A stretch of 64,000 bases of DNA from an uncultured Sphingomonadaceae bacterium. GTDB taxonomy: Bacteria > Pseudomonadota > Alphaproteobacteria > Sphingomonadales > Sphingomonadaceae. Numbering within the stretch: the first letter of the stretch is position 1; every line of letters starts with the position of its first letter. Positions 3,639 to 19,738 of the stretch are shown in pieces. The stretch spans positions 930,001 to 994,000 of the forward strand of contig CANLQE010000001.1 in NCBI GenBank assembly GCA_947493215.1. Reading direction: 5' to 3'. Under the pieces are notes generated by a model. The model was not told the DNA's origin and did not search any database. It worked only from the letters and a program-made list of their open reading frames with translations. Both the position numbers and the translations under genes were made by a program.

Positions 3639-4202
3639 TTAAGCGTTGCGGAAATCACGGCTCGGGGGCAGGGCTTCCTGCCATTGAGGCCGTTCGTTGC
3701 GCAGTTTTTCGAGCATCTGTTCCCAATAGGCTTCGGTCTTGCCTTTAAACTGGATGTTAAAATCCTCTGCCGTGCGAAATTCGAGAATCTCGACGCCTTT
3801 TTCACCAATATTATAGGTATAGGGTGTTTCGGCAGGCAGGAAAAATCCGTCACCGGGGCCCATTTTTTCGGTGCCCATGCGGATATCGCCAGCGATGATA
3901 TAATAGAGGCAATCGCTGTCATGGCTGTGTAGCGGCAGCGGATATCCGGGTTTGAACCAGAAATGATGGAGCGAGAAGCCGAAGCCGCTGAAGAGGCAGG
4001 TTCCCTTGTAACCATCGGCGACGCCCGCTTCGCCCATTTTGGTCAGGCCATCTAGGATGACCGGCGCATCATCGACATAGGACATATGCCCGGCATCGCC
4101 AAAGTCCTGCGCCTCTTCTTTGCGGAAGATACGCAGGACTTTTAGCGGCTCGGGTTTATCGCCTGCTTGAGTGCCTGTTTTTGTGGGGGAGGCATCTGCC
4201 AT
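3639..4202 (-). CDS. Cupin-domain protein
   Basis: A 187-aa soluble protein with a single RmlC-like cupin fold in its middle: the first metal-binding motif appears as PLHSHDSDCLYYIIAGDIRMG around residues 92-112, and a second, degenerate motif around PGDGFFLPAETPYTY. The histidines suggest a metal-binding cupin. The C-terminal third (QFKGKTEAYWEQMLEKL) is helical. The start follows GGAG by seven bases. It converges tail to tail with the Rieske oxygenase gene (2-bp gap), so they are not cotranscribed. The specific role is unknown. Confidence 0.75.
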   Translation of the reverse strand: MADASPTKTGTQAGDKPEPLKVLRIFRKEEAQDFGDAGHMSYVDDAPVILDGLTKMGEAGVADGYKGTCLFSGFGFSLHHFWFKPGYPLPLHSHDSDCLYYIIAGDIRMGTEKMGPGDGFFLPAETPYTYNIGEKGVEILEFRTAEDFNIQFKGKTEAYWEQMLEKLRNERPQWQEALPPSRDFRNA

Positions 4203-5390: not shown

Positions 5391-5456
5391 TAATACCATG
5401 CCGTAGCGTCACCACAGAAAATTGCCTGAACCGCTGTTTTCTGCCATAATCAACCC

Positions 5457-11349: not shown

Positions 11350-12858
11350 ATGTATGATCTGGCAATTATTGGCGGCGGTATAAACGGCGTTGGAATCGCG
11401 CGCGATGCGATAGGCAGGGGCCTCAAAGTTCTGCTGGTCGAGCGGGACGATCTGGCGGCGCATACTTCGTCGGCCAGTACCAAGCTCGTCCATGGTGGTT
11501 TGCGCTATCTGGAACATTATGAATTTAGTCTGGTGCGTAAAGCGCTGCAGGAGCGCGAAGTGCTGCTCCGCAATGCACCGCATATCATCTGGCCGATGCG
11601 TTTTGTGTTGCCGGTGGACGAAGGCATGCGTCCGGCCTGGTTTTTGCGCCTTGGGCTGTTTCTATATGACCATCTGGGATCGCGGTCGATATTGCCGGGG
11701 ACCAAAAGCCTCAACCTGCTGAAGGACTTTCGTGGGAAGCCGTTGCAAAAGCGATTGAAAAAGGGGTTTGCCTATTCCGATTGCTGGGTAGAGGACGCCC
11801 GGCTGGTGGCCCTGACGGCGCGCGACGCCAAAGAGCGCGGCGCTGATATTCGGATACAGACGGAATGTGTCGGGATTGAGCGAGGCGCCGACCATTGGAC
11901 TTTGCAGCTCAACGGACAAGAAGGCGAGGCTGCGGAACAAGCCAAAGTCTTGATTAATGCCGCTGGTCCGTGGGTGGACCCGGTAACGGCCCTCTATGAC
12001 CAGAGCAGCAACACCGCGAAATTGCGGCTCGTGAAAGGCAGTCATATTGTCATCGCCCGCAAATTTGAAGGCGATCACAGCTATATCTTCCAGAATAAGG
12101 ATGGCCGCATCGTCTTCGCCATTCCTTATGAAGGCGATCACACATTAATTGGGACAACTGATCAGCCGTGGAGCTATGACGAAGGTCCGGCGAAAATTAG
12201 CGACGGCGAAATTGAGTATCTCTGCGCCGCGGCGAGTGAATATTTCGCGGACCCCGTGACTCGTGACGATGTCCAGTGGACCTATTCCGGGGTGCGGCCG
12301 CTATTTGATGACCATAGCCAGTCTGCCTCGACCGTGACCCGCGATTATGTGTTTGATTATAATGATGAAGGCGGCGCGCCAGTGCTGTCGGTCTTTGGCG
12401 GCAAGATAACCACCTACCGGGTTCTCGCGCGGCAGGCGATGAAGACGCTCAAGGCGGCTTTGCATGTCGAGACAGATGACTGGACCAAAGATGCGCCTCT
12501 GCCCGGCGGAGACTTCCCCGCGGATGGTTTTGATGCATTGGTGGCCGAATATAACGCGCGCTGGGCGTTTATCGACAAAGCCATAATGGCCCGGCTGGTG
12601 CGAGCCTATGGCACCGATGTCGCGGGGATGTTGGATAGCGCCGGCGATAAGGGCGCTTTAGGCCGCCATTTCGGCGCTGGCCTTTATGAGATTGAGCTAC
12701 ACTGGCTAATGGCCCATGAATTTGCGACCACCGCAGAAGATGTGCTCTGGCGGCGGTCCAAACTTGGGCTACATATGACCAAGGCAGAGAAAGCATCGGT
12801 CGCGGACTGGTTTGCCGCGCAAGGCACCAAAACAAAAACGGTCACGGCCCTTTCCTGA
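11350..12858 (+). CDS. glpD: Glycerol-3-phosphate dehydrogenase, aerobic, FAD-dependent
   Basis: A 502-aa inner-membrane-associated flavoprotein that oxidises sn-glycerol-3-phosphate to dihydroxyacetone phosphate and passes electrons to quinone. The N-terminal Rossmann motif is YDLAIIGGGINGVGIARDA; SSASTKLVHGGLRYLEHYE and YSGVRPLFDD are GlpD signatures. Length equals E. coli GlpD (501). ATG 11350 was chosen because homology starts there; ATG 11338 is an in-frame alternative. The frame is open upstream but that part overlaps the GFA gene and is not homologous. Confidence 0.95.
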   Translation: MYDLAIIGGGINGVGIARDAIGRGLKVLLVERDDLAAHTSSASTKLVHGGLRYLEHYEFSLVRKALQEREVLLRNAPHIIWPMRFVLPVDEGMRPAWFLRLGLFLYDHLGSRSILPGTKSLNLLKDFRGKPLQKRLKKGFAYSDCWVEDARLVALTARDAKERGADIRIQTECVGIERGADHWTLQLNGQEGEAAEQAKVLINAAGPWVDPVTALYDQSSNTAKLRLVKGSHIVIARKFEGDHSYIFQNKDGRIVFAIPYEGDHTLIGTTDQPWSYDEGPAKISDGEIEYLCAAASEYFADPVTRDDVQWTYSGVRPLFDDHSQSASTVTRDYVFDYNDEGGAPVLSVFGGKITTYRVLARQAMKTLKAALHVETDDWTKDAPLPGGDFPADGFDALVAEYNARWAFIDKAIMARLVRAYGTDVAGMLDSAGDKGALGRHFGAGLYEIELHWLMAHEFATTAEDVLWRRSKLGLHMTKAEKASVADWFAAQGTKTKTVTALS

Positions 12859-12887
12859 TTGACGCGCCGCCATCACGATGGCAATAG
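12859..12887 (+). promoter_or_regulatory. Orphaned promoter of the original tRNA-Gly
   Basis: TTGACG (12859-12864), 17-bp spacer, CAATAG (12882-12887), ending 16 bp before the truncated tRNA-Gly copy. It immediately follows the glpD stop. The same stretch also forms a GCGCCGC/GCGGCGC stem-loop (12864-12893). Confidence 0.5.
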
Positions 12888-12903
12888 CGGCGCTTGGAAA
12901 CAG

Positions 12904-12940
12904 GCGGGTGTAGCTCAATGGTAGAGCAGAAGCCTTCCAA
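12904..12940 (+). repeat. Truncated tRNA-Gly (TCC) 5' half; left attachment repeat (attL)
   Basis: These 37 bp are identical to bases 1-37 of the intact tRNA-Gly at 18971-19007, running from the acceptor 5' strand to the end of the anticodon loop (CTTCCAA). The sequence then diverges into the island. It cannot fold into a tRNA and is the left direct repeat of the integrated element. Confidence 0.9.
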
Positions 12941-13048
12941 ATTACCAGAAACCCCAGAAAACTAGGCCCATTTTGTAAAACGGCGTTCTTAGTGTCGTTT
13001 AGTGTCAATAGCTTAGCGTTTTTGGGTAAAACGGCCGCCTGGATATCA

Positions 13049-13831
13049 TCAGCGACCAAATTCTTCCGTTCCTCGGGACTGCCCGACCGTCATGCCACCA
13101 TCTTTAAATAGTAGTTTGAAGTGCCGTTCATGCCGGTTCATCATCGAATCAAAATAATAGGCATCCAACCATTGTTCGCCATTTTTTGGTGGCGCCGAGA
13201 AGACCATATTGAAATCAATGCTGCCTCCCTTTGTGATAGTTTGTCGCGGAACAAAGATGACATTGCTTGTCGTTTCCTCATCAAATCGCCTGATTTCAAT
13301 GTCTATGCAATCTGCTCCAACATTTTCAAGGCGGAACATGTATCGAGTGGCCGATTGGCCCAAACCAAGCAATCGTAATTTGGGGCGAATTCTTTCAATT
13401 TCATCTCGTCGTTCTTTTTCGATTTTTTCTTTTTCCAATTCAACCTGACTAATGTTCACTTTCACCAGTTCTCTCTGTGCTTCAACCGACTGCTGCAATT
13501 CCTTTGCTTGCAACAATAATGCGTTGCGGCTGTTTCTAAGTTCCGACCCCTGTTGCCAAAATCCCATTACAACCCAAAACAATGCCAACGGACCGAATAT
13601 TCCAGCCAGAAAGTCACCCCATGCATTAGGGGCCATCGATCCAATATCAACATTGTTGAAATCCAGAATCCACCATACCAACCCTAAATAAAGGATAGTA
13701 CCGATCAAGCCGATCACACCATAGTTTCGTCCGCTCGATTCCAAGTGATTTTGTAGTGTCGCTTTTTCCGGATCCTTTGTCTCGACGGTTACGCCCAAAT
13801 CATCAGTTGGATCGGTTTCGTTATCTGTCAT
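13049..13831 (-). CDS. Two-TM coiled-coil membrane protein, function unknown
   Basis: A 260-aa protein. Residues 1-30 are acidic and soluble, TM1 is about 37-57 and TM2 about 71-93, followed directly by a long charged coiled coil (94-150, ending EKIEKERRDEIERIRPKLRL) and a C-terminal beta-rich domain (about 151-250). The layout of membrane anchor, coiled coil and small C-terminal domain is frequent in genomic-island proteins of unknown role. ATG 13831 was chosen because the upstream reading extension is non-homologous and crosses repeats. A shorter relative with the same TM-coil element lies at the other end of the island. Confidence 0.65.
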   Translation of the reverse strand: MTDNETDPTDDLGVTVETKDPEKATLQNHLESSGRNYGVIGLIGTILYLGLVWWILDFNNVDIGSMAPNAWGDFLAGIFGPLALFWVVMGFWQQGSELRNSRNALLLQAKELQQSVEAQRELVKVNISQVELEKEKIEKERRDEIERIRPKLRLLGLGQSATRYMFRLENVGADCIDIEIRRFDEETTSNVIFVPRQTITKGGSIDFNMVFSAPPKNGEQWLDAYYFDSMMNRHERHFKLLFKDGGMTVGQSRGTEEFGR

Positions 13832-14233
13832 TCTCGGTGCCCCAGTTCCAATAAACCCAATTATTAGCCGATGAAGATGAAATCCCAGTCCGCAAAACTG
13901 CGCACCAATCCCCATAGCATAGACGCCCAGTCGCCAAAGACAGTGATGTTTCAAAGACACAACTGTGACATTTGCTCCTGGTATATAATAATTCACCCTA
14001 AGTCTGCGGGGGGTCGGGAAACGCATTACCTTTATTACTATGGCAGATTTCTGCGGGTTACAGACATTGCTTTGACCTATGATCAAGGTAACATTACTTT
14101 ATCAATATATATTATCCTTATTATTCAATGACGTAATGAAATTTGCCGTTTTGGGTAATGCAGAATAATAAAGGCGGTATTACTTTTTTATCTATTTATT
14201 TCATATCGATACCCCCGATTTTCCGACAGGGTA
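13832..14233. other. Non-coding AT-rich stretch with repeated GTAATG words
   Basis: No credible gene is present. The stretch holds at least six GTAAT(G) or complementary CATTAC words and carries most of an imperfect inverted repeat (next entry). Confidence 0.6.
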
Positions 14234-14253
14234 ATGAAAGTAATGCGTTTTCC
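14016..14253. repeat. Imperfect 23-bp inverted repeat with internal GTAATG iterons
   Basis: The right arm (14231-14253) reads GTAATGAAAGTAATGCGTTT plus TCC. The left arm (complement of 14016-14038) reads GTAATAAAGGTAATGCGTTT plus CCC, matching at 20 of 23 positions. Extra GTAATG words occur at 14133 and 14155. The right arm coincides with the point where the SRAP gene loses its 5' half, which suggests a recombination boundary. Confidence 0.6.
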
Positions 14254-14722
14254 GCATTGGGCAGAGGATGCCAAGCGATCTTACAGCATGATTCAAGCCA
14301 GGGCAGAGAGCTTAGAAGAAAAACCAACCTATCGCGGCCTGATCAAATCGTGCCGTTGTGCGGTACTGGTCTCGGGTTTTTACGAATGGAAGCGCGACGG
14401 AAAAGACAAGAAGCCGTATAAGGTCGAGCATGAAAGCGGTCATCCGATGATTATGGCCGGTTTGTGGACCCGAAACGAGGCGATGCGCATCGATAGCTAC
14501 ACCGTGATTACAACCGCTGCATCACCAACATTTGCATGGCTGCATGATCGTCAGCCTGCCATCCTGCAGCCAGACCAGGTTAATTTGTGGGTCGATGGGC
14601 CCTGGGACGATGCCAAGGCGCTAACGGGAGTGTTTTTAGGCCCATTGGCGGCTACCGCTGTGTCGAAAGACGTCGGCAACGTGCGCAATAACTACCCAGG
14701 GCTTTTAGAGCCAATCGACTGA
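14234..14722 (+). pseudogene. N-terminally truncated SRAP (YedK/HMCES) gene
   Basis: The 162-aa product matches only the C-terminal two-thirds of SRAP proteins: QARAESLEEKPTYRG, CRCAVLVSGFYEWKRDG, MIMAGLWT, WLHDRQPAIL and NNYPGLLEPI. Intact members are about 220 aa and use Cys2 (after removal of Met1) to form a thiazolidine crosslink with abasic sites. That N-terminus is absent, and the active-site Asn of the usual NARAE motif is Gln. The Glu of FYEW and the His of LHDR remain. It is therefore very likely inactive. Confidence 0.8.
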
Positions 14723-14765
14723 CGGGTAAGAACCATAGAGTTTTACCGGCCTAGAATTGTAACAC

Positions 14766-15155
14766 TTATGACCGTGTGACGCCTAGAATTCTATATGTAG
14801 CTGGCGTTGTCCCATAACCGCTCGAACTACCATTGCTCACCACGGTGCATCCTACACGGATTCTTCCGCCACCATTTATCGATTTGGTCCGCTCCTGTCG
14901 AATATATGGCCCCTTTGCTGGCTGCCATCCTACTTGATAGGTAACTCGGATAGCTTGGTTTGAAAGGAGATTTTTGATATAAACCAGGGAACCGCCGCCG
15001 TGGCCACCTGTACATCTTCCGGATATCTGTATTTGCGCGTCCGCTAAACTGGCTTCATTTGATTTTTTATCGGCGAATGCCTGAACCGGACCAGAAATTA
15101 AAAATCCGCCTGCAATAATGGCTGATATTGCAGAGAGTTTTTTTCGATCGAACAT
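14766..15155 (-). CDS. Secreted small protein, function unknown
   Basis: A 129-aa protein with a signal peptide (KKLSAISAIIAGGFLISG, cleavage likely after VQAFA). The mature part is Gly/Ser/Thr-rich with two cysteines (SGRCTGGHGGGS and RIRVGCTVVS) that could form one disulfide, and a beta-rich profile. I do not recognise the family. It lies inside the tRNA-Gly island, on the opposite strand to the envelope operon that starts 340 bp away. Confidence 0.55.
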   Translation of the reverse strand: MFDRKKLSAISAIIAGGFLISGPVQAFADKKSNEASLADAQIQISGRCTGGHGGGSLVYIKNLLSNQAIRVTYQVGWQPAKGPYIRQERTKSINGGGRIRVGCTVVSNGSSSGYGTTPATYRILGVTRS

Positions 15156-15495
15156 AGAAATTCCCCTGAATAGTAATATTGCAAACCACGATCCATCTTA
15201 ACCAATCACAAAAATTCCAGTAAAAGAAACTAAATTAAACCCAATCAGGTTATTCTTTGGCTGAATGGATCGCGGGAAGATGCAACACTACTAGAAGAAC
15301 TACTTTTTGGCAAATTGGCGACAATTATAGTCTTTAAAGACACTAGAAATGTGAGGCTCAGCCACCCTCTAATTTTGAAGCTGACAGATAGAATGCCGAC
15401 TGCACAGAAAGATCAAGCCAAATCGGTTGTGTTTTCTCTGTAACATTATGTGAATCCTATGTTTTCTTATAAAAAGGGAACTAAGGGGGCTTTTA
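15156..15495. other. Intergenic region, promoter area of two divergent envelope genes
   Basis: The 340 AT-rich bases hold no open frame of note. They separate the secreted protein (leftward) from the periplasmic/OmpA-lipoprotein operon (rightward) and must contain both promoters. AAGGGGG sits just before ATG 15496. No clear operator was seen. Confidence 0.5.
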
Positions 15496-16380
15496 ATGAA
15501 ATACATGTCGATAACTGTTGCGTCTATTTGTCTGTGTTTGGCGGTCGAGGCGAAGGCAGAAGAATGTCCTCCTATGCGCTATGCCACGCAATTGGCTGAA
15601 GCATCGGGGCAGCTTCGGGCGAAGGCACAATCTAAACTTTTGAGTTCATTGGCTTCTCGCCTTCGAGCAGAGCGGGGTGATAAGACAGGAACCGTAAAGG
15701 CAGATATTGGCGGTAGATATGCGGTTGCTGCGGCAGGTGGGCTGGCACAGACCGCCTATTCCGAGACGATCACAACCTATTTTTGTAAGCTGCGTGAAGA
15801 GTTCGTGGGCAGTCCTGCTAAGGTCACCAGCCTGAAGCAAGAAGAGATCGAGATGAAGCTGTCGTTGCTAAAATATTTCGATATCGGTCGGTGGCAAATT
15901 TCAGCCATCGAAGCGCGCGATGAAATGGGTGAAGATATAGAATCTGCCGATCATCCTGCATCAATATTCTCGGTTGCTGAAATTAGTTCAGCAATGCCCG
16001 ATTACACATTTGATACATTAAAAATATACGAAATATTTGGCGGATTCTCGGTCGGAGACACTCTTGGAGTAGAGGGTTGTGGTGGTATCGTCACTAGATC
16101 TGTACGCCAGATTCACCCCAGCGTTTTATCTGATCTAGAATATATGCAGTACATCATCAGCCAATGGCTAGCGAGCGATAAAAAAAGCGCACAATTGGAA
16201 TTGTGGAACAGAGTGAATGCTCAGATGACCGCACAGCTGGTGCGATCCCAAAATGAAGAAGAGCTCAGAATCAATGACTCTTTGATCAGTTGTGTTGAGA
16301 AAGCAGCCCAAGCTGCCGAGGCAAAAGCACAGGAAGAAGTAGCAAGCCCAGCACCTACACCCGCAACGCCTGCGGCATGA
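15496..16380 (+). CDS. Periplasmic protein of an OmpA-lipoprotein operon, function unknown
   Basis: A 294-aa protein. The signal peptide (residues 1-21) ends VEAKAEE, and the mature chain begins ECPPMRYATQL. It is mostly helical with several cysteines (for example FCKLRE, VEGCGG, SLISCVEK) that may pair in the periplasm, and ends in an Ala/Pro-rich tail. No known domain was recognised. The stop overlaps the start of the OmpA-like lipoprotein (ATGA), so the two are coupled and likely act together at the cell envelope. Codon use is AT-richer than the core genes, in line with acquisition on the island. Confidence 0.7.
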   Translation: MKYMSITVASICLCLAVEAKAEECPPMRYATQLAEASGQLRAKAQSKLLSSLASRLRAERGDKTGTVKADIGGRYAVAAAGGLAQTAYSETITTYFCKLREEFVGSPAKVTSLKQEEIEMKLSLLKYFDIGRWQISAIEARDEMGEDIESADHPASIFSVAEISSAMPDYTFDTLKIYEIFGGFSVGDTLGVEGCGGIVTRSVRQIHPSVLSDLEYMQYIISQWLASDKKSAQLELWNRVNAQMTAQLVRSQNEEELRINDSLISCVEKAAQAAEAKAQEEVASPAPTPATPAA

Positions 16381-17351
16381 AAAAAAGGATTGCCGAGTTA
16401 GCGCTTTGTTCTGGCGCTGCACTATTGCTGTCTGCATGCGCGCATGACGGTTTGCCACCCGGCTTTTCAAAAGAACTGAGGCCGGAAGCGAAGTTGAGAA
16501 AAAAGCAATGTGATGCAATGGAGCGCTCATTTAGGCCTAGCGTTGACAATTCGGGACAATTGAAAATACTGGGTTTTTCGATTGGTGGTAGAAAGGCAGT
16601 CGGCAACCTCAACAGTGTTTCAGATCAACATCTTGTTGCTCTAAACAACCTGCTATTGGCTTGCCGTGATTGGCAGTATTTCAAAATAAAACCGAGAGAG
16701 TTTCGTCGAGCCCAGGCTGAATTTGGTGCCGTGATGCGATCAGGGCTAAGCGATTTGGATGCACAACAGAGACTTAAGGCGTTAGCGCAGGCATTGCAAG
16801 AAGCAGAAGATGGCCAAGTCGCTACTCGGGATAAAATTGATGATCGGTTCGATGAGTTGAACAATTTGGTTTCGAACATGCCAGATTCAGACACTGAACA
16901 ACCCCAGCTCATTGATAGAATTGCGAGCCTAGAAGCAAAGCTGGATATTTTGCTCAATGGTCAGCCTGATTCTGTGAACACAACATTTTTGTGTAAAGAT
17001 GGTTGGCTTACAAGACCAAATTATTCATGGAAAATCCAGTTCGAAACCGGATCGGCTCAACCCATGAACGCGGATATTGCCGAAGTCAAAACCTACTTGG
17101 AAACATCAACAATTGCTCGAACTGAATATCGATTGTCTATTGTTGGATATGCCGATGTGCGGGGAAATCCTACTTCCAACCTACGGCTTGCAAAAAGAAG
17201 AGCAAATGCGACTGCACTTGCTCTGAAAGTCGATGGTATTAAAATTAAGACCTCAGCGGCTGTTGGTGAAACAGAGGAATTTGGTGATCAATTCTCTGAC
17301 AACAGAATAGCGTTGGTGAACCTTGGCGAAAAATGCCTCTTGGAAAATTGA
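16377..17351 (+). CDS. Lipoprotein with C-terminal OmpA-like peptidoglycan-binding domain
   Basis: A 324-aa protein. The lipobox LLLSAC gives a lipidated Cys near residue 21. The middle is helical, including a coiled coil with RDKIDDRFDELNNLV. The C-terminal domain matches OmpA_C: IQFETGSAQP, then GYADVRGNPTSNLRLAKRR. The Asp and Arg that grip diaminopimelate in OmpA are kept, while the usual GHTD is GYAD. It could tether the outer membrane to peptidoglycan and present its partner from the overlapping upstream gene. Exact role unknown. Confidence 0.78.
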   Translation: MKKRIAELALCSGAALLLSACAHDGLPPGFSKELRPEAKLRKKQCDAMERSFRPSVDNSGQLKILGFSIGGRKAVGNLNSVSDQHLVALNNLLLACRDWQYFKIKPREFRRAQAEFGAVMRSGLSDLDAQQRLKALAQALQEAEDGQVATRDKIDDRFDELNNLVSNMPDSDTEQPQLIDRIASLEAKLDILLNGQPDSVNTTFLCKDGWLTRPNYSWKIQFETGSAQPMNADIAEVKTYLETSTIARTEYRLSIVGYADVRGNPTSNLRLAKRRANATALALKVDGIKIKTSAAVGETEEFGDQFSDNRIALVNLGEKCLLEN

Positions 17352-17444
17352 GTTTCATTCCGGTGTCGAAGTATGTGGGGAACGTGCAGAACAATTTCAG
17401 CGGACTACTCGCGCCCCTATCCTAACTCAATCAGTACAGAGTTA

Positions 17445-17705
17445 TCATGAAAAGAATGCTAACACTTCTGGACAAGAGAGCTGACCATCTTGATTGACAT
17501 CTATTATACCAAAAATCGTCGGCCCATTGGCTGGATCGCAAGCCTCCCACTCAGTCAAATCTACAAATTCGTTAGCATCGGCATCACATCCGTAGATGTA
17601 ACGTTCACAAATGCCTTGTGGATTTGATTGGGCTATTGAAGGCGTAGAAGCGGCAGCAAAAAGCGCCAACGATACACACCATAACATATTGCTTGTTTTA
17701 GACAT
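17445..17705 (-). CDS. Secreted EF-hand protein A (tandem paralogue)
   Basis: An 86-aa protein: signal peptide to SIAQS, then two EF-hand loops, DADANEFVDLTEW and DVNQDGQLSCPEV, with cysteines placed to make disulfides (CERYIYGCD). Probably a small periplasmic Ca2+-binding protein. GAGGAAA precedes the start. It and the next gene share layout, upstream bases and key residues, so they arose by tandem duplication. Confidence 0.75.
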   Translation of the reverse strand: MSKTSNMLWCVSLALFAAASTPSIAQSNPQGICERYIYGCDADANEFVDLTEWEACDPANGPTIFGIIDVNQDGQLSCPEVLAFFS

Positions 17706-17790
17706 ATTGATTTCCTCTATGACTATGGGGACGCGCGGAATAGTTTTAGCGAACCAAACGCGCGGCCCTTCTCACTCGATCAAGACAAAA

Positions 17791-18054
17791 TTACGATCGA
17801 TGGAAAACTATTACTTCTGCGCAAGTAAGCGATCCATCCTGGTTAGCATCCATTGCAGAGAAACCTTCGGCTCCACCTCCATGGCCGCAGGATTCAAACT
17901 CTGCGAGAGATGCCTCTCCGTCTCCATCTCCATCACAATTGTAGACAAATTGTTGGCAGAGTAATTCGTCACCCGATTGGGCCATTGTTGGAACAGAAGA
18001 AGCAGAAAAAAGCGCCAATGCTGTAAAACAAGCCATGGTTTTTACACTAGACAT
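17791..18054 (-). CDS. Secreted EF-hand protein B (tandem paralogue)
   Basis: An 87-aa protein: signal peptide to TMAQS, then DGDGDGEASLAEF and DANQDGSLTCAEV EF-hand loops, and the same cysteine frame (CQQFVYNCD) as protein A. AAAGGAAA lies before the start, and the sequence just upstream resembles that of its paralogue. The first loop here has more acidic ligands than in A, so Ca2+ affinity may differ. Confidence 0.75.
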   Translation of the reverse strand: MSSVKTMACFTALALFSASSVPTMAQSGDELLCQQFVYNCDGDGDGEASLAEFESCGHGGGAEGFSAMDANQDGSLTCAEVIVFHRS

Positions 18055-18281
18055 ATTATTTCCTTTTTGATGTTGGGGATCATCAAAATACTGGAATATG
18101 CCTAAATTGTAAATTCAGTGCTGTAATACTTCTCATCCATTTTGGACTTACACTTTGGATAGACAGTTTCAGAAGCGGTTATTCGGCATGGCGGGAGCCG
18201 ATAGCCCCAAAGGTCTACGGGGCATCCACAGTATCAGCGACTATGCCGACGATCGAGATTTTAAGGGGGTGTTTTTCTACA

Positions 18282-18761
18282 ATGTCTGGAAATAGTAAGG
18301 GTTTATACATCGTCCTCGCAGTCACTGCTTTTGCATTGACAGGCCTAACAATCGCCAATGAATCAAATTGCGATCGCACAAATTATGCCGATAATTTGAA
18401 TCATGGAACAAACCATCCTCTCGGCTTTGATCGCGGTTGGCTTCCCTGCATTGTAGAGCGCGAAACTGCCAATCCATATACCAGTAGCAAGAATGAAATA
18501 GAACAGCGCGACCTTATAGCACAAGAGGCAATGGCTTTATGGGCTTTCTGGGTTGCTGCGTTCGCTAGCTTGACTGCCGTTATTACTGGTGCCGGTACGA
18601 TACTGATTTGGCGTCAGGTCAGTTTGACGAGGAAAGCCGTTGAAGAAACCGAAAACGCGCCAATGACGATAGCGGGATTTGGCATAAGGCGGAGTTTGAA
18701 GACGAAGTCGACCGGGCCAAGCATTTGCATGATGTGCGCGGCACGTTCGCGACCAAGCTGA
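18282..18761 (+). pseudogene. Truncated TM/coiled-coil membrane protein fused out of frame to integrase remnant
   Basis: The first roughly 125 residues are a sensible membrane protein: TM1 at 6-25, a periplasmic-type loop, TM2 in ALWAFWVAAFASLTAVITG, then RQVSLTRKAVEETENA at the start of a coiled coil. From about 18655 the frame runs in the wrong phase through integrase coding sequence, giving an unrelated tail. This marks a deletion junction that removed the end of this gene and the start of the integrase. Confidence 0.65.
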
Positions 18762-18922
18762 TGACCCTAGTCGAGCCCAAGCTGACCGACAAAGAGATAG
18801 GCGATATAATGGCCTGGGATGATCAGACGGTTTCACGAATTCGCAAATCATATGTTGACGAGACGTCCATTGTTATCGCAATAGGCGAACGAATTCAGCG
18901 CGGCTTGGCGGCGAATTTGTAA
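18659..18922 (+). pseudogene. Tyrosine recombinase (integrase) remnant, C-terminal catalytic part
   Basis: The frame reads HLHDVRGTFATKLMTL, then EIGDIMAWDDQTVSRIRKSYVDE. This matches the end of phage-type integrases: the H-x-x-R box and the nucleophilic Tyr (SYVD) are present, but the N-terminal DNA-binding region and the first catalytic Arg are gone. It stops 48 bp before tRNA-Gly, the normal place for an island integrase. TAA overlaps one of the GTAAAACG repeats. Confidence 0.8.
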
Positions 18923-18970
18923 AACGATTTGTAAAACGACGTTTTGCCTTAGCCAGAAAATGGCAGAAAA

Positions 18971-19044
18971 GCGGGTGTAGCTCAATGGTAGAGCAGAAGC
19001 CTTCCAAGCTTACGACGAGGGTTCGATTCCCTTCACCCGCTCCA
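18971..19044 (+). tRNA. tRNA-Gly (anticodon TCC), reconstituted by the island
   Basis: Complete cloverleaf: acceptor GCGGGTG/CACCCGC, D-arm GCTC/GAGC, anticodon loop CTTCCAA with TCC, T-arm GAGGG-TTCGATT-CCCTT, discriminator T at 19041 and encoded CCA at 19042-19044. Its first 37 bases equal the left repeat at 12904. The 5' half and the upstream promoter region therefore come from the island, while the 3' half is original chromosome. Confidence 0.97.
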
Positions 19045-19253
19045 ATTCCTTGAAATCCGACATTGTCAGTATGTTCTGCGCCTATTGCACCATCCAAGGG
19101 CAAGAGATTGTGCGGAATAATCTCGGCAAACGCCTTTGAATCCGGATTTTCAGTGTCTGTTTCATCCCGAAAGCGGACATTGAAAAAATTACTACGACAT
19201 CTAAGTATGATTTTATTTTTAATGGAAAAGCCGTACAAAAGGGAGCGTGAGCG

Positions 19254-19655
19254 ATGGTGACGGGGCAATGCAATTGTGGTTTGGTATCTTTCGCAATCGA
19301 GATGGACCCCAAAGACATCTATATTTGTCACTGCTCAATCTGCAGACGATGGACTGGAAACAACGGTGTGGCAGTTTCGATTGTTCCAAAAGAGCAGTTT
19401 AGGTGGGTCTCTGGAGAAGAAAATGTAGCAAGTTGGCAAAAATCAAATGCCGATTGGCAAAGCTGGTTTTGTCGAAATTGTGGGTCTGCTTTACCTGGCA
19501 ACAATGACGAAATGAACATGTTTATTCCAGTCGGACTGCTAGATGCTGGTGCGAACAATCTCGAAGTTTCTCATCATATTTGGGTGGAGTCCAGAGCCGC
19601 CTGGGACAAAATTTGCGATGAAGGTAAACAGCACCAAAGAGAATTCCAAGGCTAG
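19254..19655 (+). CDS. GFA-family zinc protein, copy 2
   Basis: A 133-aa protein with GQCNCGLVSF, CHCSICRRWTG and CRNCGSALPG, the three cysteine clusters of the GFA family. It is about the size of copy 1, but its sequence is clearly different and its composition is AT-richer. It lies just outside the tRNA-Gly island. Function is unproven, as for most family members. Confidence 0.82.
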   Translation: MVTGQCNCGLVSFAIEMDPKDIYICHCSICRRWTGNNGVAVSIVPKEQFRWVSGEENVASWQKSNADWQSWFCRNCGSALPGNNDEMNMFIPVGLLDAGANNLEVSHHIWVESRAAWDKICDEGKQHQREFQG

Positions 19656-19738
19656 TTGCTCCTGCCTTTTGATATGTCCGCTTTTGCGCCCATAGCGGAC
19701 ATTAGCAACTATGCCACAGATCGGACTAGACCGCAGCT

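Follow-up and report, generated by a model that had tools for sequence, protein, structure and literature searches.

How does a tRNA gene remain transcribed after an integrative element has inserted within it and cut it off from its promoter? This question is raised by a 6-kb segment ending in the gene for tRNA-Gly(TCC) in a stretch of 64,000 nt from an uncultured Sphingomonadaceae bacterium (assembly GCA_947493215.1, contig CANLQE010000001.1, positions 930,001 to 994,000), referred to as the window. We propose, with a probability of about 85%, that the segment is a decayed integrative element and that a promoter embedded in the coding sequence at the 3' end of the integrase gene (int) now drives transcription of the regenerated, single-copy tRNA. 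The codons beside the catalytic tyrosine of the integrase would quite probably represent an overlapping code that specifies both the end of the recombinase and a substitute promoter for the essential host tRNA which the element has disconnected from the original one.

The tRNA-Gly(TCC) locus

The first 37 nt of tRNA-Gly(TCC), at 18971-19007, are repeated exactly and in direct orientation at 12904-12940, and this is the longest direct repeat found across 12500-19500. ARAGORN predicts the intact gene at 18971-19044 and places the anticodon at nt 33; the repeat therefore extends through the anticodon. The 5' half and the intact gene share their orientation and are separated by 6067 nt, within the 2-200 kb range used for islands with a 5' fragment. 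Ahead of the half, directly after the stop codon of the preceding open reading frame (ORF), lies TTGACG-N17-CAATAG. We call this ORF putatively glpD-like, a label adopted from an initial annotation made from the sequence alone.

A full exact copy of tRNA-Gly(TCC) is present in 28 congeners, 26 of which were examined for an upstream motif (G007 and G025 were left out). In 25 of these, TTGACG-N17-CAAT ends 14-41 nt before the tRNA, the 26th being G018, and in the congeners inspected the end of the preceding gene is closely similar (TGATTGACG). The left junction is therefore chromosomal, and 12859-12887 represents the native tRNA-Gly promoter. Although stranded, it has not decayed, differing by one base from the promoters of several congeners. 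No terminator-like site was found on the plus strand of 12800-13150, and a half-tRNA transcript from this promoter is possible. The idea that it drives genes of the element was dropped as unsupported, the first ORFs in ten left ends being of mixed orientation.

The initial annotation had expected an uninterrupted junction in island-free relatives. The congeners bear this out for the left side only: among the best-scored candidates in the 31 other genomes of the genus, none has the DNA that follows 19045 immediately beside the tRNA. G023 comes closest, with the stretch 19164-19706 inverted and 3.9 kb downstream of tRNA-Gly; the right flank is variable, and no complete empty site was seen in the congeners. 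As a separate observation, G011 (locus L184) carries a conventional scar, with an intact tRNA-Gly (3673-3746) behind its native promoter, a 3' fragment (nt 30-74) 1.74 kb downstream, starting at 5416, and between them one ORF of 340 amino acids; no integrase ORF was seen there. Both sides of the same tRNA-Gly have thus been used.

A search of the window's own genome with tRNA-Gly(TCC) returned only the intact gene and the half. Among the 37 tRNAs of this genome, 30 were read: Gly(TCC) and Gly(GCC) each occur once in these, Gly(CCC) is absent, and the remaining seven are Leu/Ser-like, as they are 82-89 nt long. The gene for tRNA-Gly(TCC) thus looks single-copy.

What the initial annotation had missed is a remnant of an integrase and, with it, a candidate replacement of the lost promoter. 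Between the two tRNA copies an integrase is present only as a C-terminal remnant, which lies on the strand of the intact tRNA and stays in frame up to a stop codon 48 nt ahead of it. Its best segments are 46-68% identical to six integrases, all full-length, found by scanning a genome collection with the remnant. All six are from sphingomonads, and each is followed on its own strand by a tRNA-Gly (TCC or CCC) at a distance of 23-69 nt. The PF00589 profile did not match the remnant, whereas four of four relatives tested scored above the cut-off. Within the window's own genus the remnant retrieved one of 32 genomes, namely itself; a short remnant in G018 escaped that search.

The integrase family and its integration sites

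Searches with full-length relatives yielded the family in 23 of 396 genomes of the order (E 1e-30, with scoring limited to the first few candidates in each genome), in 20 of 397 genomes of the family Sphingomonadaceae and, in three genera, in 11 of 94, 15 of 195 and 14 of 201 genomes (E 1e-40); these genome sets overlap. The following counts are based on 75 parsed loci minus 16 in which no tRNA follows int within 800 nt. At 45 loci the integrase gene lies 5' of tRNA-Gly on the same strand (five-prime-type), and 14 loci are three-prime-type. In 36 of the 45, int ends 8-70 nt before the co-directional tRNA. More distant relatives sit on the 3' side of tRNA-Pro or tRNA-Met in opposite orientation. 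In a tree of the integrases, 13 of the 14 three-prime-type rows fall into one clade (15 rows, support 100/99), while L137, at a tRNA-Gly(TCC), is a three-prime-type locus nested among five-prime types. The tree excluded L044, L059, L060, L138, L139, L140, L168, L169, the window and proteins shorter than 330 residues.

The other end of the element was sought in 26 stretches (three of them three-prime-type, one without a tRNA), and a 39-46-nt 5' half of the same tRNA was present in eight; a ninth element with such a half (40 nt, one mismatch) is that of G062. The stretches extended at most about 18.8 kb upstream, so that longer elements would be missed. Taken together, the congeners, the suitably placed integrase remnant and these nine homologous elements sustain what had been proposed from the repeat, which was itself correctly described along with the stranded promoter: integration inside the tRNA, duplication of its 5' rather than its 3' half, and dependence of the intact tRNA on DNA of the element.

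A relative is also encoded in 111 viral stretches, of which the best 80 were kept, suggesting that many family members are likely prophages. Thirteen of these have a tRNA within 800 nt. Of the remaining 67, 31 extend at least 60 nt past int; a search of these for tRNA halves was positive in 20, and the other viral stretches were unclassifiable. In four contigs that contain the attachment site of the free form (attP; L218, L226, L228 and L266), int and the motif described below are followed by a tRNA-Gly 5' half with 78-100% identity to library tRNAs. Three others (L210, L219 and L251) have the 5' half without the strict motif. In L251, the int frame enters the tRNA 5' half at its stop region, the same bases encoding protein and tRNA.

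A promoter-like motif at the 3' end of int

In the family, the 3' end of int reads TAY-GTT-GAC, five codons, GTG-GCA and A/C/T-T, which amounts to TTGACN-N18-CA(A/C/T)T; the Y of the encoded YVD is presumably the catalytic tyrosine. In the window, the embedded motif and the native promoter have TTGACG and GCAATAG in common, with a spacer of 18 nt in the former and 17 nt in the latter. When a strict motif (TTGACN, spacer of 16-19 allowed, CA(A/C/T)T) was sought within 200 nt before the tRNA, it was present in 39 of 45 five-prime-type loci, in none of the 14 three-prime-type loci (L137 included) and in 0 of 45 in antisense. After reduction at 80% identity, the counts were 32/37 versus 0/13 (Fisher P 2.4e-8). 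The spacer is 18 nt in 38 of the 39 motif-bearing loci, and only four of 690 control windows (120 nt) around tRNAs of the window's genome contained the motif.

The motif is tied to the tRNA rather than to int. Its end lies 67-115 nt before the tRNA (median 77, standard deviation 8.6 nt), whereas its distance to the int stop codon has a standard deviation of 110 nt (n=39). Where int stops early, the motif is retained in non-coding DNA (L052, L053, L125, L160-L162, L164 and L208, the last with the tRNA 1995 nt from int), and in L170 it straddles the stop codon; read through in frame, such non-coding motifs still give V-D, followed mostly by V/M-A. In the congener G018 (L003), int is reduced to about 25 codons, which contain the motif 74 nt before tRNA-Gly. 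The window represents a milder decay, the N-terminal part of the integrase being lost and the last 85-89 codons kept.

Within int, the constraint acts at the level of codons. In shuffles of synonymous codons, the motif was observed in 26 of 30 integrases near a tRNA against 1.15 expected (P about 7e-36), but in 0/7 far integrases (0.07 expected) and 0/13 three-prime-type ones (0.17 expected). Among held-out viral integrases it was observed in 8/10 against 0.09 expected (P about 1e-16), after the removal of loci that reached about 80% identity with the genome set or with one another (10 of 14 kept). Among 281 alignment columns, codon bias is strongest in four, all belonging to the motif: V as GTT (26/28), A as GCA (22/22), V as GTG (26/26) and D as GAC (28/29). 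Even among integrases with identical V-D and V-A residues, all four codons occur in 36/36 of those at most 75 nt from a tRNA or 5' half and in 1/15 of the others (P about 1e-11, near-copies retained). The single exception must be L149, at a contig end where the tRNA may be cut off; unclassifiable integrases at contig ends have all four codons in 9/13 cases. In L122, whose tRNA 5' half is not restored, GTC and GCC stand where its relative L132 has GTT and GCA. Up to the tyrosine, L195, L197 and L199 share 82-90% identity with L039, and they have lost codons of the motif; no tRNA half was detected within 900 nt of them. That these three are so close to L039 yet differ after the tyrosine, away from any detected tRNA half, suggests a change of target.

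Proposed mechanism and alternatives

According to our proposal, this family of sphingomonad tyrosine integrases recombines in the anticodon region of tRNA-Gly and carries the 5' half of the gene, which is located in attP together with int and TGTAAAAC arm-type repeats. A crossover in that region leaves, at the left junction, the native promoter followed by a half tRNA and, at the right junction, a whole tRNA preceded by the 3' end of int. The promoter would comprise TTGAC just after the tyrosine codon (TAY-GTTGAC) and GTGGCA(A/C/T)T as second element, with an 18-nt spacer and an end about 77 nt before the tRNA. We infer that this embedded motif, in the 3' end of int, is where RNA polymerase starts and is required for the tRNA, and that RNase P would free the tRNA from a leader of roughly 60-70 nt. 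As the host would depend on the end of the element, the promoter would outlive the integrase, as in the window and in G018.

A number of observations weigh against this proposal. The strict motif precedes only three of 30 tRNAs of the window's genome, one of them tRNA-Gly(TCC), and is thus not general for tRNA promoters; it belongs to the grammar of the tRNA-Gly promoter, not to that of all tRNA promoters. It is also a weak match to the E. coli consensus TTGACA/TATAAT, its second element in particular being a poor TATAAT. GCAATAGC resembles a Caulobacter-type -10 element. A generic sigma-70 scan misses the native and the embedded site alike, so that it is of little use here, and finds CTGACC-N17-TATAAT at 18782-18810 instead. 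Six of the 45 five-prime-type loci lack the strict motif. Five of these have a partial one: GTTGAC and CAGT in L036 and L037, TTGACG nearer the tRNA in L150 and L155, and, in L048, TTGACG-N16-TTAAGG, whose end, counted at TTAA, is 77 nt from the tRNA. Nothing similar is present in L128, nor does the regenerated tRNA of the viral locus L212 have the motif. In a held-out set with labels set by hand, the motif was found in 13/18 five-prime-type and 1/17 three-prime-type loci (L260; P 8e-5). The strict pattern was defined after the first loci had been inspected, later genus loci and viral loci coming afterwards, and, as the side of insertion follows phylogeny, the 0/14 does not represent 14 independent cases.

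Could the tRNA instead be transcribed by read-through from the promoter of int itself or from others upstream? Such transcription would be favoured by the close, co-directional placement of int and tRNA in 36 of 45 loci, has a parallel in archaeal pTN3-like elements, where the integrase promoter is said to serve the tRNA (PMC8371274), and would find a start in the window at CTGACC-N17-TATAAT. We consider it unlikely, for it leaves unexplained both the constraint on synonymous codons and the persistence of the motif at loci with a truncated or missing int. Quite unlikely, too, is that the conserved nucleotides belong to the attP recombination site, as an integrase arm site or a site for an excisionase or a bending protein. 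The near-fixed distance from the tRNA and the neighbouring TGTAAAAC arm-type repeats would fit such a role. Yet arm-like repeats (loose pattern) occur in 14/14 three-prime-type and 41/45 five-prime-type loci, and CTAAGnnnTTG beside the tRNA in 11/14 and 24/45, respectively, while three-prime-type loci lack the motif throughout. Moreover, the motif equals the native tRNA-Gly promoter of the genus and is kept in decayed elements that are hardly able to recombine (the window, G018).

That the motif serves the free phage, driving left-end genes across attP after excision, seems very improbable. In attP contigs the motif and the tRNA 5' half do face away from int, but the ORFs that come first inside the left end differ in orientation among the 10 elements compared, and the motif is kept in integrated remnants. 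As to the 37-nt half, the insert lacks an intact integrase, as would be expected of a chance duplication rather than an integration scar. We rejected this explanation as having a negligible probability, given a remnant from an integrase family that adjoins tRNA-Gly, arm repeats at both ends and the nine homologous elements.

Other features of the element

The features of the locus are compiled in Table 1. A deletion junction likely lies near 18650, where the upstream ORF meets the integrase remnant. TGTAAAC-like sites resembling the left arm-type repeat are also present in the left ends of homologous elements.

Table 1. Features of the tRNA-Gly(TCC) element in the window.
Feature	Position	Strand	Basis
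Stranded chromosomal tRNA-Gly promoter, TTGACG (12859-12864)-N17-CAATAG (12882-12887)	12859..12887	+	motif common to 25/26 congeners
Displaced 5' half of tRNA-Gly(TCC), left element end	12904..12940	+	exact 37-nt repeat
Arm-type repeat TTTGTAAAACGGCGTT, candidate integrase arm site, left end	12972..12987	+	94% match to 18928-18943
Cargo region	13049..18054	mixed	ORF list, Pfam profiles; "membrane" and "secreted" judged by eye
Start of ORF running into integrase remnant	18243..18649	+	ORF list
C-terminal tyrosine integrase remnant, about 85-89 codons	18653..18922	+	60% identity to L033
Candidate replacement promoter TTGACG-N18-CAATAG within integrase coding sequence, 86 nt before tRNA	18855..18884	+	family conservation
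Two direct TTTGTAAAACGA arm-type repeats, integrase stop codon inside the first	18916..18943	+	sequence
Intact tRNA-Gly(TCC), element-derived 5' half and chromosome-derived 3' half	18971..19044	+	ARAGORN, repeat

The cargo comprises ORFs for a likely membrane protein (minus strand), an N-terminally truncated SRAP protein (plus), a small secreted-looking protein (minus), one protein without a Pfam match and one with a sub-threshold OmpA match (both plus), and two EF-hand-like proteins (minus). In the SRAP ORF (14234-14722), roughly the first 62 of the 214 profile positions are missing, and what looks by eye like another SRAP tail is located 2.6 kb further at about 17363-17425, giving two broken SRAP copies in one element. 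The EF-hand-like ORFs (17445-17705 and 17791-18054) are adjacent paralogues whose matches stay under the Pfam cut-off. Outside the element, 19674-19706 is a dispersed palindromic repeat of about 33 nt, REP-like, with dozens of matches over the genomes of the genus. In another family member, L036, the DNA ahead of the tRNA half (640-736) resembles the right end of a further family element, suggesting a tandem insertion.

Comparison with known systems

Elements that integrate into the 5' half of a tRNA gene are in the minority, and expression of the regenerated gene is rarely addressed; the family described here suggests a concrete answer. It would be a clear case of a promoter dual-coded in the active-site region of a conserved enzyme, would account for the persistence of an integrase scrap next to the tRNA in dead elements, and offers, with the motif, a sequence rule separating five-prime-type from three-prime-type elements. 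In the literature searched (titles and abstract openings, with most subscription journals outside its scope), we found no description of a tRNA promoter within an integrase gene; the accessible text of PMC11476347 has nothing on 5'-side integration.

Islands with a 5' tDNA fragment make up 159 of 3919 in Islander (PMC4383910), in keeping with the remark of the initial annotation that duplication of the 5' half is unusual. They share with our element a tRNA gene with a displaced 5' fragment upstream in the same orientation, and have between them a tyrosine integrase, of which the window contains a C-terminal remnant. The main text of that paper makes no use of the word promoter, whereas we propose a conserved promoter inside int. 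The arrangement called SIT, with the integrase before the tRNA on the same strand, as in the window, accounts together with OD for less than 8% (PMC2951348); in its accessible part, the paper is concerned with the control of int, whereas here int would supply the promoter of the tRNA.

In archaeal pTN3-like elements, too, attP contains the tRNA 5' half and the regenerated tRNA is parted from its promoter (PMC5495485, PMC8371274). As described in the accessible text, however, int is disrupted by integration there and the integrase promoter serves the tRNA, a solution seldom met in bacteria (PMC8371274). In the family presented here, int is whole in intact elements, ending shortly before the tRNA or, in four attP contigs, before its 5' half, and it is the 3' end that carries the motif. 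A similar dependence is known from tRNA-dependent lysogeny, in which the prophage must supply the function of an interrupted essential host tRNA (PMC10865867). According to the accessible part of that report, this is achieved by a separate phage tRNA gene, the host tRNA remaining unreconstructed; in the window an intact tRNA is present at the junction, and only its promoter would be replaced. Integration with the 5' half is thus already known, and a tRNA promoter inside the coding sequence of int would be the new part.

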